Of a stretch of 64,000 nucleotides of DNA, positions 798-61,516 are shown piece after piece. Within the stretch, counting starts at the first letter, position 1. Each line of letters opens with the position of its first letter. The translations under genes were made by a program, and so were the position numbers. The notes under the pieces were generated by a model. That model was not told where the DNA came from, did no database searches, and saw nothing but the letters and a program-made list of their open reading frames with translations. The stretch is from Lutimaribacter pacificus (lineage in GTDB: Bacteria > Pseudomonadota > Alphaproteobacteria > Rhodobacterales > Rhodobacteraceae): contig NZ_FQZZ01000003.1 of NCBI RefSeq assembly GCF_900142185.1, positions 186,001 through 250,000 of the forward strand, written 5' to 3'.

Positions 798-1013
798 ATG
801 ACCCTTGCCGATACCCAGACCAGCCACGCCCCCGCCACCAGGCCCGCGAGGGACGAAACCGTGCTGGCCCGCAAGATCCTGCTGACCGTGCTCATGGTCT
901 TGATCGCCTGGGGGCTGGCCATTGCGAAATGGGGCGTGCCGGGGCTCTATCTTCCTGCGCTGGCGATGGTGCCGGTGATGTATGTCATCCTGATCCTGAT
1001 CAGCCGCGGCTGA
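798..1013 (+). CDS. Small two-helix membrane protein, unknown function
   Basis: A 71-residue protein. Its first 25 residues are polar (Thr/Ala/Arg-rich), followed by two hydrophobic segments at about 27-44 and 48-68 separated by a short KWGVPG turn. It therefore looks like a small inner-membrane hairpin protein. An AGAAAGGACGACC stretch just before the ATG serves as ribosome binding site. I recognise no family. It lies between the nucleotidase and the flavin monooxygenase on the same strand, with a gap of about 85 bases on its 3' side, so it may be its own transcription unit. Confidence 0.65.
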   Translation: MTLADTQTSHAPATRPARDETVLARKILLTVLMVLIAWGLAIAKWGVPGLYLPALAMVPVMYVILILISRG

Positions 1014-1097
1014 CCGCGATTTCGGACGGGACAGGATGCCGCTTGGAAACCCGCCCCGTCCCGGCCTAGATTGCCCCCGGACAGGAGGCATCAGGCC

Positions 1098-2300
1098 ATG
1101 ACCCATCAGACAGTCGATATTCTGGTCTCCGGCGGCGGTGTCGCCGGGCTGACCGCGGCGGCGGTATTCGGAAGCGCGGGATTTTCGGTGATCTGCGTCG
1201 ATCCCGCCCCCCCGGTGACCGAGCGCGACGCCGAAGGCAGCGATCTGCGCACCACCGCCTTTCTGCAGCCCGCGCAGGCGCTGCTGGAGCGCGCCGGCCT
1301 GTGGGCGCGGCTGGCGCCCCATGCCGCCGACCTGCAGATCATGCGCATCGTCGATGCCGGCGGGCCGGAACCGGCGGCGCGGCTGACGCGGGATTTCAAC
1401 GCCTCGGACATTTCCGACCGCCCGTTTGGCTGGAACCTGCCGAACTGGCTGCTGCGGCGCGAGATGGTGGCGCGGCTGGGCGAGATGCCGAATGTCGAGT
1501 TTCGCCCCGGCACCGGCACGCGATCCGTCTTTACCCGCGAGGGCGAGGCGCGCGTGGGCCTGTCGGACGGCAGCGCGGTGCGGTGCCGGCTGGTGATCGC
1601 GGCGGACGGGCGCAATTCGCCGGTGCGCGAGGCGGTGGGCGTGCCGGTGAAAACCATCCGTTACGGGCAAAAGGCGCTGGCCTTTGCCGTCACCCACCCG
1701 ATCCCGCATGAGAATATCTCGACCGAGATCCACCGCTCGGGCGGACCCTTCACGCTGGTGCCGCTGCCAGATTACGAGGGGCGGCCCAGCTCGGCCGTGG
1801 TCTGGATGGAACACGGCCCCGAAGCCATGCGCCTGTCGCGCCTGGACGTGCCGGAGTTCGAGGCGGCGATGAACGACCGGTCCTGCCTGCTTTACGGTCC
1901 GCTGACGCTGGCCTCGCGCCGGACGGTCTGGCCGATCATCAGCCAGATCGCGCGGCGCATGTATGCCGAGCGCGTGGCGCTGGTGGCCGAGGCCGCGCAT
2001 GTGGTGCCGCCGATCGGCGCGCAGGGGCTGAACATGAGCCTGGGCGACATGCGCGTGCTGCTGGATCTGGCCGAGGCCGCGCCCGAGCGGCTGGGCGATG
2101 CGAGGATGCTGGAAACCTATCACCGCCGCCGCCACCCGGAGGTGCAGGCGCGGGTCACCGGTATCGACGTGCTGAACCGCGCCTCGATGGTGTCGGCCCA
2201 GCCGCTGCGCGACCTGCGGATGATGGGGCTGAACGCGATCTATGCGCTGCCCGCGGTGCGTCGCACGATGATGCAGATGGGCCTTGGCGCGCGGGGTTGA
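1098..2300 (+). CDS. FAD-dependent monooxygenase, UbiH/Coq6 family
   Basis: A 400-residue class A flavoprotein monooxygenase of the ubiquinone-biosynthesis hydroxylase type, expected to hydroxylate an aromatic ring using NAD(P)H and O2. The N-terminal Rossmann motif is SGGGVAGLTAA with the acidic end of strand 2 at VICVD. An RNSPVR segment matches the DG/R region. The second FAD motif reads EAAHVVPPIGAQGLNMSLGD, where the usual GDAAH is AEAAH. I chose the ATG at 1098 because AGGAGG lies 10 bases upstream; the ATG at 1071 would only add residues without family similarity. UbiH, UbiF, UbiI and UbiL types cannot be separated here. The missing Gly-Asp pair is unusual but the rest of the fold looks intact. 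Confidence 0.88.
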   Translation: MTHQTVDILVSGGGVAGLTAAAVFGSAGFSVICVDPAPPVTERDAEGSDLRTTAFLQPAQALLERAGLWARLAPHAADLQIMRIVDAGGPEPAARLTRDFNASDISDRPFGWNLPNWLLRREMVARLGEMPNVEFRPGTGTRSVFTREGEARVGLSDGSAVRCRLVIAADGRNSPVREAVGVPVKTIRYGQKALAFAVTHPIPHENISTEIHRSGGPFTLVPLPDYEGRPSSAVVWMEHGPEAMRLSRLDVPEFEAAMNDRSCLLYGPLTLASRRTVWPIISQIARRMYAERVALVAEAAHVVPPIGAQGLNMSLGDMRVLLDLAEAAPERLGDARMLETYHRRRHPEVQARVTGIDVLNRASMVSAQPLRDLRMMGLNAIYALPAVRRTMMQMGLGARG

Positions 2301-2311
2301 GGGCTGGGCGT

Positions 2312-2330
2312 GAGGGGGCTTTGCCCCCTC
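2312..2330 (+). terminator. GC-rich hairpin 3' of the UbiH-type gene
   Basis: A perfect 8-bp stem GAGGGGGC/GCCCCCTC with a TTT loop begins 12 bases after the stop codon. There is no T-tract, so it is either a weak terminator or the G-rich part of the intergenic repeat seen elsewhere in the window. A nearly identical hairpin occurs at 63949-63965. Confidence 0.4.
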
Positions 2331-2417
2331 GGCCTGCGGTCAATCCCCGGGGCTCCGCCCGTTCGGGCCTTGAAAGGTCCACTGGACGTTTCATCGCGCT
2401 GTCGCGCGAACCGGCCC

Positions 2418-2446
2418 TCACCCCCGAGTACTTGCAGAACGATGAA
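2418..2446 (-). repeat. Intergenic repeat motif, copy 1
   Basis: Read on the minus strand this is TTCATCGTTCTGCAAGTACT followed by a G-run. It resembles the TTCATCTTGCCCGAAATACT-type motif at 8217 and 51168. It sits between two convergent genes, just outside the 3' end of the aminotransferase gene. Confidence 0.5.
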
Positions 2447-2451
2447 GAGGA

Positions 2452-3579
2452 TCAGAGCACCTGATCCACCACCTTTTTCAGCCGGTCCAGCGCGGCGGGC
2501 ACGTCATAGAGCTTGTCCAGCCCGAACAGGCCCAGCCGGAAGGTCATGAAGCCCTCGGGCTCGTCGCATTGCAGCGGCACGCCGGCGGCGATCTGCATAC
2601 CCAGCGCCGCGAATTTCCTGCCGTTCTGGATATCGGGATCGGTGGTGTAACTGACCACCACGCCCGGCGCGCCGAAGCCCTCGGCGGCCACCGACGCCAC
2701 ACCCTTGTCCTTGAGCATCGCGCGCACGCCATCGCCCAGATCCCATTGCGCCTGGCGCAGCTTTTCGAACCCGTAATCGCGGGTTTCGAGCATCGTGTCG
2801 CGGAAGGCGCGCAGCGCGTCGGTGGGCATGGTGGCGTGGTAGGCGTGGCCGCCGTTTTCATAGGCCTCCATGATCGCGCGCCATTTCTTCAGGTCGAGCG
2901 CGAAACTGTCGGACGCGGTTTCCGCCAGCCGGGCCAGCGCGCGGTCGGACATCATCACAAGCCCGGCCGAGGGCGAGGCCGACCAGCCCTTTTGCGGGGC
3001 CGAGATCAGCACGTCGACGCCGGTGGCCTTCATGTCGACCCAGGCGCAGCCGCTGGCGATGCAATCGAGCACCATCAGCGCGCCCACGTCATGCGCGGCC
3101 TGCGCCAGCCGCGCGATATAATCGTCGGGCAGGATCAGGCCCGCGCTGGTTTCCACATGCGGCGCGAACACCACGTCGGGCTGGGCGTCGCGGATGGCCT
3201 GCGTCACCTCGTCGATCGGCGCGGGGGCAAAGGGCGCCTGCACGCCATTGCCGGTCTGGCGGGCCTTGAAGACGGTGGTGTCGCGGGTGAATTGCCCGGC
3301 GTCGAAAATCTGGCTCCAGCGGAACGAGAACCAGCCGTTGCGCACGATCAGCGCGTGGGCGTCATGGCCGAACTGGCGGGCCACCGCCTCCATCGCGTAG
3401 GTGCCGCCGCCGGGCACCAGCGCCACGCCGTCGGCATTGTAGACCTCTTTCAGCATGTCCGAGATGTCGCGCATCACCTGCTGGAAACTGGCCGACATGT
3501 GGTTGAGCGACCGGTCGGTGAAGACGACCGAATATTCCAGCAGCCCGTCGGGATCGACGGTATCGAGCAAAGCGGCCAT
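2452..3579 (-). CDS. Class V aminotransferase (alanine-glyoxylate type)
   Basis: A 375-residue fold-type I PLP enzyme of the alanine-glyoxylate/serine-pyruvate aminotransferase group. The PLP-binding Lys is K197 in SAPQKGWSAS. The cofactor Asp lies in LDCIASG near residue 172, and a GGGTYAMEA loop near 57-65 fits phosphate binding. The start has GGAGGTG about 6 bases upstream on the coding strand. Two Lrp/AsnC genes lie immediately upstream on the same strand, 62 bases away, so amino-acid-responsive control is likely. The exact amino donor and acceptor are not visible. Confidence 0.88.
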   Translation of the reverse strand: MAALLDTVDPDGLLEYSVVFTDRSLNHMSASFQQVMRDISDMLKEVYNADGVALVPGGGTYAMEAVARQFGHDAHALIVRNGWFSFRWSQIFDAGQFTRDTTVFKARQTGNGVQAPFAPAPIDEVTQAIRDAQPDVVFAPHVETSAGLILPDDYIARLAQAAHDVGALMVLDCIASGCAWVDMKATGVDVLISAPQKGWSASPSAGLVMMSDRALARLAETASDSFALDLKKWRAIMEAYENGGHAYHATMPTDALRAFRDTMLETRDYGFEKLRQAQWDLGDGVRAMLKDKGVASVAAEGFGAPGVVVSYTTDPDIQNGRKFAALGMQIAAGVPLQCDEPEGFMTFRLGLFGLDKLYDVPAALDRLKKVVDQVL

Positions 3580-60704: not shown

Positions 60705-60867
60705 CGCCTCTGCCTCCTTTTTCACGTCATAGGTGGCAGTTTTGGGCCGCATGACAACCCCTGCCATCGGGCGGGTTTTCGGCCTGCCCTGATTTCCGGC
60801 AGGAAAGCCCGGAAAAAGGGCAGGAAGGCTTATGCATTTTCTGCATGGCAGCATTGCGCAAGAAGTC

Positions 60868-60897
60868 ATTGTGCAACTGCAGCATTTTCCTAGATAT
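60868..60897 (+). promoter_or_regulatory. Candidate heat-shock-type promoter of the DUF1127/sRNA locus
   Basis: TTGTGC at 60869-60874 and CCTAGATAT at 60889-60897 with a spacer of about 15 bases resemble RpoH-type promoter elements. In Rhodobacter sphaeroides the homologous locus is driven by RpoHI/RpoHII. The start site is not determined, and the match is visual only. Confidence 0.35.
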
Positions 60898-60948
60898 TGG
60901 TCACAAGCAAGGCGCTGAGCCGCCGGACAGAGACAGAACGCAAGGACC

Positions 60949-61170
60949 ATGACAATGGCTTTCGCAACCCACATTCACAGCACCGCACATGCCGGCGCAC
61001 ATCACGGTCTGCTCGCCGAGCTGCAGGACCGGATCGCCCGCTACCGGCTCTACCGCAAGACGGTGAACGAACTGGCGGTGCTCAACGCCCGCGAACTGGC
61101 CGACCTGGGGCTCTGCCGCGCGCAGATCCGGGCCGTGGCCTACCAGGCCGCCTACGGCGACCGGGCATAA
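60949..61170 (+). CDS. ccaF1: DUF1127 protein (CcaF1-like) heading the CcsR sRNA locus
   Basis: A 73-residue basic protein. Its C-terminal half is the DUF1127 motif (RYRLYRKTVNELAVLNARELADLGLCRAQIRAVAYQAAYG), and the N-terminal third is His/Ala-rich. AAGGACC precedes the ATG at 60949; a second ATG lies two codons on. In R. sphaeroides the DUF1127 protein upstream of the CcsR sRNAs (CcaF1) is an RNA-binding protein that affects sRNA maturation and decay. Here the same arrangement is seen: the coding region is followed at once by CUCCUCCC-loop hairpins, so the sRNAs are probably cut from the 3' part of this mRNA. Confidence 0.9.
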   Translation: MTMAFATHIHSTAHAGAHHGLLAELQDRIARYRLYRKTVNELAVLNARELADLGLCRAQIRAVAYQAAYGDRA

Positions 61171-61180
61171 CGAAACAACG

Positions 61181-61257
61181 GTTCAGGTGACCCTCTCCTC
61201 CTCCCTGGGTCATCTGTGAACTGGCGGCGGCGTCTTCCTCCTCCCTGACGTCGCCGC
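61181..61257 (+). ncRNA. ccsR: CcsR-like ('cuckoo') sRNA, first copy
   Basis: Two hairpins lie directly after the DUF1127 stop. The first is an 8-bp stem GGTGACCC/GGGTCATC (61186-61214) with loop TCTCCTCCTCCCT. The second is an 11-bp stem (61224-61257) with loop TTCCTCCTCCCT. A pair of stem-loops exposing an anti-Shine-Dalgarno CUCCUCCC is the definition of the cuckoo RNA family. Boundaries are estimated from the hairpins. Confidence 0.85.
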
Positions 61258-61289
61258 ACCTTAACACCGGCCCAAACGGGCCAGGCGAT

Positions 61290-61366
61290 ACGAAGTTCCC
61301 TCTCCTCCTCCCTGGGGGCTTCGTTGAAAGGCCGGCGGCACCCTCTCCTCCTCCCTGGGTGCCGCC
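61290..61366 (+). ncRNA. ccsR: CcsR-like sRNA, second copy
   Basis: Two hairpins: a 10-bp stem CGAAGTTCCC/GGGGGCTTCG (61291-61323) and a perfect 10-bp stem GGCGGCACCC/GGGTGCCGCC (61334-61366). Both have the loop TCTCCTCCTCCCT. A short GGCCC-AAAC-GGGCC hairpin (61269-61282) separates it from the first copy. Stem sequences differ between copies while loops are identical, as expected for loops under selection. Confidence 0.85.
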
Positions 61367-61397
61367 GCGCGACATACCGGCCCGATCGGGCCACAGG

Positions 61398-61487
61398 AAT
61401 ACGGCTGCGTTCTCTCCTCCTCCCTGAACGCACCGTTACCAAGCGGCGGCACCCCTCCTCCTCCCTGGGTGCCGCCGTTTCTTTTTT
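61398..61487 (+). ncRNA. ccsR: CcsR-like sRNA, third copy
   Basis: Two hairpins: TGCGTTC/GAACGCA extended by ACGG/CCGT (61401-61436) with loop TCTCCTCCTCCCT, and an 11-bp stem (61444-61477) with loop CTCCTCCTCCCT that ends in a T-tract. A GGCCC-GATC-GGGCC type hairpin (61379-61392) precedes it. This copy carries the terminator of the whole locus. R. sphaeroides has four such sRNAs; here I count three. Confidence 0.85.
61444..61487 (+). terminator. Rho-independent terminator of the sRNA locus
   Basis: The perfect 11-bp stem CGGCGGCACCC/GGGTGCCGCCG is followed by TTTCTTTTTT. The terminator loop itself carries the CTCCTCCTCCCT motif. Confidence 0.92.
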
Positions 61488-61516
61488 CCGGCATGTTCAG
61501 AATTCGGGCGGTCCGC

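Follow-up and report, generated by a model that had tools for sequence, protein, structure and literature searches.

The window analysed here, a stretch of 64 kb of Lutimaribacter pacificus DNA, carries a locus (60955-61487) in which a short DUF1127 gene is followed by three pairs of hairpins, and all the features of the locus, including a putative operator and a promoter-like element ahead of the gene, lie on the forward strand. The gene (60955-61170) codes for a small CcaF1-like protein of 71 aa, which was identified by PF06568 and by alignment with congeners, and as in the CIN1 locus it stands directly upstream of the hairpins on the same strand. The start codon had been placed at 60949, which is also open and gives a protein of 73 aa; however, the ATG at 60949 has no counterpart in either of two congeners whereas that at 60955 is kept, and therefore the start at 60955 is more likely. 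The 73-aa form matches PF06568 (DUF1127) with 45 bits, the cut-off being 23.3, and the 71-aa protein gave no match over a cut-off in NCBIfam. The genome has another two DUF1127 genes (G000:C1:520962-521072 and G000:C2:539560-539634), and a search with R1, a covariance model of the hairpin module, found nothing near these two genes (L039 and L041) at E <= 1.

The motif CCTCCTCCC occurs six times on the forward strand of the whole 64-kb window and not at all on the reverse strand, and all six copies lie within 61197-61465. This confirms the original prediction that six hairpins with this loop are found in about 300 bases behind a DUF1127 gene. Unit 1 consists of hairpin 1 with its anti-Shine-Dalgarno (anti-SD) loop (61184-61216; motif and stem scan, fold) and hairpin 2 with a GCGGCGG stem (61224-61257; stem scan, alignment fold), unit 2 of hairpin 3 (61290-61324; stem scan) and hairpin 4 (61333-61367), and unit 3 of hairpin 5 (61401-61436; stem scan) and hairpin 6 with a T tract (61441-61487). 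Each copy of CCTCCTCCC sits in a hairpin loop, and the stems, G-U pairs being allowed, run uninterrupted for 10, 11, 11, 11, 7, and 14 bp in hairpins 1 to 6, and hairpin 5 has four extra outer pairs beyond a one-base bulge. The stem scores were 25, 30, 26, 32, 18, and 37, respectively, and in 3000 shuffles of the flanks the median was 9, the 95% point 15, the 99% point 19, and the maximum 33. Thus, five of the six scores are above the 99% point and only that of hairpin 5 lies lower, though above the 95% point. For the array as a whole (61171-61488) the fold has z = -8.98 and none of 100 shuffles was as stable. The motif is not enriched in the genome, where there are 30 sites compared to 42 for the reversed pattern, and so what stands out is its clustering, with six of the 30 sites at this locus.

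It had also been claimed that the stems differ completely, which is wrong, as hairpins 4 and 6 have an 11-bp stem, CGGCGGCACCC/GGGTGCCGCCG, in common. The stem of hairpin 2 carries GCGGCGGC and in every pair the second hairpin has either GCGGCGGC or CGGCGGC, a GCGGCGG-type stem as in Rfam CcsR1, and the stems that diverge are those of the first hairpins of the pairs. The pairs are parted, as predicted, by GGCCC/GGGCC hairpins, which are present at 61269-61282 (GGCCC AAAC GGGCC) and at 61379-61392 (GGCCC GATC GGGCC), as read from the sequence and from gap folding, and the two gaps fold at z = -2.8 (p 0.01) and z = -1.5 (p 0.08), respectively. Hairpin 6 followed by CTTTTTT looks like an intrinsic terminator, which is in line with the proposal that the last hairpin doubles as one, although the terminator scan, which admits loops of 3 to 8 bases while that of hairpin 6 has 12, reported none. 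The stem common to hairpins 4 (61333-61367) and 6 (61441-61480) permits cross-pairing that would open the terminator hairpin; the minimum free energy structure of the isolated array pairs the arms of these two hairpins with each other and the centroid structure keeps both of them local. A coding array and a CRISPR were also considered for the hairpins and were set aside, and so was an attenuator of a uvrD-type gene, which is on the opposite strand.

When the window was searched with Rfam family models, RF02791 (CcsR1) matched all three units, at 61180-61262, 61287-61373, and 61397-61483, with 50.6, 47.5, and 34.5 bits (E 3.1e-11, 2.6e-10, and 1.8e-6), respectively, and RF02344 (ar14) matched units one and three with 42.5 and 47.5 bits. 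The family-model search put forward in the original prediction was thus positive for RF02791 on each unit but every score was below the curated cut-off, the gathering cut-offs of RF02791 (65.3 bits) and RF02344 (58.8 bits) being reached nowhere in the window. A scan of the window at the gathering cut-off gave tRNA only, and CcsR1 appeared when an E-value threshold was used, together with weak matches to 6C, ar7, Scr3202, and others, the best of which had E 0.024. Only nine of the 198 genomes of the family reach the cut-off of RF02791, and we read the gathering score as a narrow cut-off and the E-values as supporting homology of the window units. The model R1 listed units 1 and 3 of the window and did not list unit 2 as a separate match, perhaps because neighbouring matches overlap.

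The arrangement of the locus is the same as that of the published ccaF1-CcsR1-4 operon (PMC10253847). Drawing on this published arrangement and on the Rfam CcsR1 consensus, the likeness to the R. sphaeroides operon (the CIN1 locus; RF02791) lies in a DUF1127 gene followed by two-hairpin anti-SD units, in a terminator at the end of the array, and in the GCGGCG stem of hairpin 2, which is that of the CcsR1 consensus. It differs in that there are three units in the window and four in R. sphaeroides, and in that the Rfam scores of the window are below cut-off. Adjacent hairpins with CCUCCUCCC in the loop, a trait of the CcsR/cuckoo RNAs, are found in six of six cases. The ar14/NfeR1 family of Rhizobiales (RF02344) likewise has CCUCCUCCC loops on variable stems and an LsrB-type operator upstream, which is published for NfeR1 and putative in the window; however, the S. 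meliloti RNA is a three-hairpin sRNA with its own promoter whereas the window holds an array led by a DUF1127 gene. A constant loop motif on variable stems is also what SmelA075 and SmelA099 have, but there are three and four hairpins per RNA in these and in the window the hairpins are in pairs parted by spacer hairpins. The family of SmelA075 and SmelA099, described by Reinkensmeier et al., was reportedly later named cuckoo. The RF02791 matches, the DUF1127 open reading frame, and the ccaF1-CcsR1-4-like arrangement bear out the CcsR/cuckoo identity that had been proposed for the array. With the anatomy, the covariation, the family matches, and the conservation of the operator that were observed at the locus, we put at nearly nine in ten the probability that 60955-61487 is a ccaF1-CcsR operon of a Lutimaribacter type, that is, a DUF1127 gene and then three two-hairpin cuckoo/CcsR sRNAs, with a LysR operator. 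Judged from its sequence, it represents, with three units, a stress-response sRNA operon known from marine and purple bacteria, in which the gene of a small RNA-binding protein precedes hairpins able to cover ribosome-binding sites.

Two congeners, Lutimaribacter saemankumensis (G001; Rhodobacterales, Roseobacteraceae in the NCBI taxonomy) and the metagenome-assembled genome KhS_metabat.39 (G002), carry the same three units, ordered as in the window, and the stems are specific to each unit and show paired changes; among the three congeners the first hairpins vary while their pairing is kept, as in hairpin 3. Beyond the genus, RF02791 matched 29 of 60 genomes, the source genome included, and nine of these 29 have exactly three matches; in the family as a whole 163 of 198 genomes were matched, with 1 to 10 matches per genome, both searches being run with stricter filters. 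Of 14 well-known genomes that served as a control, one (Thermus composti) had a match and this was below cut-off. When one locus was taken from each of the 29 matching genomes, a DUF1127 open reading frame (E <= 1e-3) was found upstream of the hairpins on the same strand in 25 of the 29 loci. Arrays were then described by folding at 59 loci, 30 of them named, each anti-SD hairpin being written as A and any other hairpin as s. Leaving off outer hairpins, 27 of the 59 loci follow the strict pattern (A A s)n A A with n >= 1, and the other loci are irregular (26), have a single unit or hairpin (4), or are without an array (2); A A s A A is contained in 39 of the 59. The window folds as A A s A A s A A, and so do Cribrihabitans marinus and the Ruegeria loci L063, L064, and L070; 8 of 10 Leisingera loci have A A s A A and Silicibacter lacuscaerulensis has four units. 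The congener G001 folded irregularly as AAAAsA, yet the spacer sequences are present in it, and of the nine loci over the Rfam cut-off four (L009, L075, L077, and L079) are regular and the other five are not. Three copies are therefore ordinary, and both the copy number and the spacer hairpins, which had been singled out as special to this locus, are common in relatives. The locus itself is an ordinary, regular member of the CcsR family. In L023 (G020) and L034 (G008) the array folded with as many as 14 anti-SD hairpins, in the former without a spacer hairpin. On the reverse strand of L013 (G009; 847-3005) four DUF1127 open reading frames are interleaved with anti-SD hairpins, and here the gene and hairpin module itself seems to be tandemly repeated.

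The stems were said in the original prediction to be held by compensatory changes, and this is real in the relatives. In the RNAalifold structure the module's first hairpin came out unpaired, and its pairing was therefore examined by permutation of the arms. A stem score of at least 15 with its own partner was found at 217 of 263 distinct clustered motif sites, with 46 falling short, compared to 11.9% of permuted pairs. The module alignment A3 holds 43 of 60 modules, two irregular ones from L014 and 15 near-duplicates picked by eye having been omitted. In this alignment 8 of the 10 pairs of hairpin 2 are changed on both sides and so are all three pairs of the spacer. The covariation of hairpin 2 and the spacer, scored on a consensus structure derived from the same alignment, was 0.479 compared to 0.201 in shuffles, none of 500 of which reached it, and it was 0.121 or less when the 3' partners were slid. 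Since it was the loop motif that served to select the sequences, the invariance of the loops is not an independent result. The variable stems of the CcsR/cuckoo RNAs, kept by compensatory change, are thus found here too, though hairpins 4 and 6 share a stem. Most of the 229 gaps between hairpins are either shorter than 15 bases or about 30 to 39 bases long, and 67 distinct gaps of 22 to 70 bases, among which related spacers are not independent, had a mean fold z of -1.83, with 66 of 67 below zero and 30 of 67 at p <= 0.05.

An alternative to the processed sRNAs is that the array stays uncut and acts as one multivalent RNA that sequesters an RNA-binding protein, for instance the DUF1127 protein encoded ahead of it, much as CsrB soaks up CsrA. 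Six near-identical loops on different stems in one stretch, the up to 14 such loops per array (G020), and the DUF1127 open reading frame upstream in 25 of 29 loci would all suit such a sponge; however, the loop motif is termed an anti-SD sequence in published work and NfeR1 is reported to work by base pairing (PMC10746234), and we consider it unlikely. It is less likely still that the hairpins are mere 3'-end structure of the DUF1127 mRNA, serving its stability or termination with no function in trans. Strong hairpins can protect 3' ends and the last hairpin does have the look of a terminator, but from genus to genus the stems vary by paired changes while the loop stays constant, though these loci were picked by the loop, and trans functions are published for the relatives (PMC10253847, PMC10746234). 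That the locus is a chance cluster or a non-functional repeat would agree with the lack of enrichment of CCTCCTCCC in the genome but is hardly credible given the fold z of the array, the CcsR1 matches in 163 of 198 family genomes, and the same order of units in the congeners. 

Turning to how the ccaF1-CcsR operon might be controlled, the sequence TGCATGGCAGCATTG at 60842-60856, which stands 98 nt before the start codon of the DUF1127 gene, is the reverse complement of the VtlR-binding motif CAATGCAGCCATGCA reported from Brucella (PMC12595884) with 14 of 15 positions matching, that is, one mismatch. It is the best match in the 64 kb, where one other site reaches 13/15, and when the 202 nt upstream were shuffled by mononucleotides, one of 20000 shuffles reached 14/15. 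A 15-bp operator upstream of the transcription unit, a trait of the VtlR/LsrB regulon, is thus present as a sequence match, and the site is a putative operator for a LysR regulator of the VtlR/LsrB type. When 12 upstream regions were aligned, TGCATAGCAGCATTG and ATTGTGCANNTGCAGCATT were conserved as blocks, along with a CCTATNTT-like element. The conserved columns include a promoter-like element in the window, TTG ... CCTAGATATT (60869-60898). Checked for the RpoHI/RpoHII promoter that marks the CIN1 locus, the region shows a conserved TTG ... CCTATNTT-like element to which no sigma class was assigned, and a scan with the sigma-70 consensus found no promoter.

A wider pattern for the operator, TGCATRGCWGCATTG, has one perfect site in the genome, which is that at 60842-60856, and at up to two mismatches there are 13 sites compared to 9 for the reversed control. 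Across 60 genomes the pattern has 14 perfect sites, each of them followed at a distance of 300-534 nt by a CcsR1 match, and of its 77 one-mismatch sites 11 precede such a match within 700 nt, in a comparison that took in 41 of 90 CcsR matches, whereas the reversed control gave 15 sites in all. A site with at most one mismatch was found upstream of a CcsR1 match in 23 of the 29 genomes with such a match and was not found in the other six (G005, G018, G025, G031, G044, and G046). Because TGCATRGCWGCATTG was widened after these loci had been seen this enrichment is partly circular, but the comparison with the published 15-mer is not. With a looser pattern a site was found within 520 nt upstream in five of eight further loci and none in L074, L077, and L078, all three of which are over the Rfam cut-off. 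Genome G015 has two separate CcsR loci (L026 and G015:C1:708910-709566), each with its own perfect site.

In Brucella VtlR is reported to activate three DUF1127 genes and the sRNA AbcR2, and its LysR gene is beside trxB (PMC12595884). In S. meliloti the activator of NfeR1 is LsrB, which acts at a TGCA/GCAT motif (PMC10746234), and VtlR of A. tumefaciens is reported to bind upstream of abcR1, the small-protein gene atu1667, and the sRNA VrsA (PMC7486931). In the source genome no LysR open reading frame was seen beside trxB (L096, G000:C1:104500-112500), and therefore the trxB-adjacent LysR protein of genome G039 was taken as the query. An open reading frame that by eye has the look of AsnC/Lrp stands near trxB in L096, and a LysR open reading frame is beside trxB in five of seven other alphaproteobacterial trxB loci that were inspected. 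The G039 query had exactly one match at E <= 1e-70 in each of the 21 family genomes searched, and its single such match in the source genome is a 301-aa LysR protein (G000:C5:149196-150047), with which it has 46% identity and is a reciprocal best match. With the latter as the query there was one clear best match in each of six genomes, the G039 protein included, with E from 4.4e-96 to 2.7e-80 while the next best of any was 4.4e-43, and all five whose place was compared with that of trxB, those outside G038, adjoin it by coordinates. Among the matches listed, which cover 25 of 55 families, NCBIfam had none over the cut-off for this LysR protein. From the trxB neighbourhood and the 301-aa length given in PMC12595884, it is likely the VtlR/LsrB orthologue. 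The second trait of the regulon, an orthologue in the genome, thus has a likely candidate as well, the identity of the G039 protein as VtlR/LsrB being taken from its trxB neighbourhood. The locus and many of its relatives therefore likely carry a switch for a redox-sensing regulator, to judge by the operator and the candidate regulator. In the literature searched no link of VtlR with CcaF1 or of CcsR with a LysR regulator was found, and the link of operator and regulator to CcsR operons, new as far as that search goes, is the part worth following.

A probable course of events is that the operon is transcribed as one RNA, with the DUF1127 gene first and the three two-hairpin sRNAs behind it, that the VtlR/LsrB-type regulator probably activates it from 60842-60856, that the promoter at 60869-60898 would act together with this operator, and that the last hairpin would terminate transcription. 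The R. sphaeroides operon has a published RpoHI/RpoHII promoter, and roles of RNase E, CcaF1, and PNPase on the CcsR RNAs are published in that organism. In L. pacificus RNase E, aided by the DUF1127 protein, may cut the unpaired linkers around the spacer hairpins, the place and the use of these cuts being our suggestion, and PNPase would then trim the products. The suggestion in the original prediction that the spacers are RNase E punctuation fits what has been published on RNase E and PNPase for CcsR1-4 (PMC7866481), and the published R. sphaeroides figure of three, which equals the gaps between its four units, would by our inference agree with a cut in every spacer region. By analogy with NfeR1, whose anti-SD loops are reported to bind ntrB at its translation start by pairing (PMC10746234), the six CCUCCUCCC loops, being unpaired, would pair with the Shine-Dalgarno regions of target mRNAs.

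As an example of a widespread sRNA operon the locus is clean and easy to read, and the spacer hairpin, whose place and pairing are kept in many relatives while its sequence varies, has the look expected of a processing signal. With a confidence that is only a little better than even, we propose that an old VtlR/LsrB regulon takes in the CcsR operons of Rhodobacterales and that in this regulon a single LysR regulator turns on anti-SD sRNAs as well as DUF1127 proteins across the Alphaproteobacteria, as AbcR, NfeR1, VrsA, and separate DUF1127 genes in Rhizobiales and as a fused DUF1127-CcsR operon here, and that the basic unit is a module of three hairpins, two anti-SD and one processing spacer, whose tandem number sets the dose of sRNA. 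A conserved VtlR/LsrB-like operator would put the CcsR sRNAs under the same LysR regulator that in Rhizobiales controls anti-SD sRNAs and DUF1127 genes.
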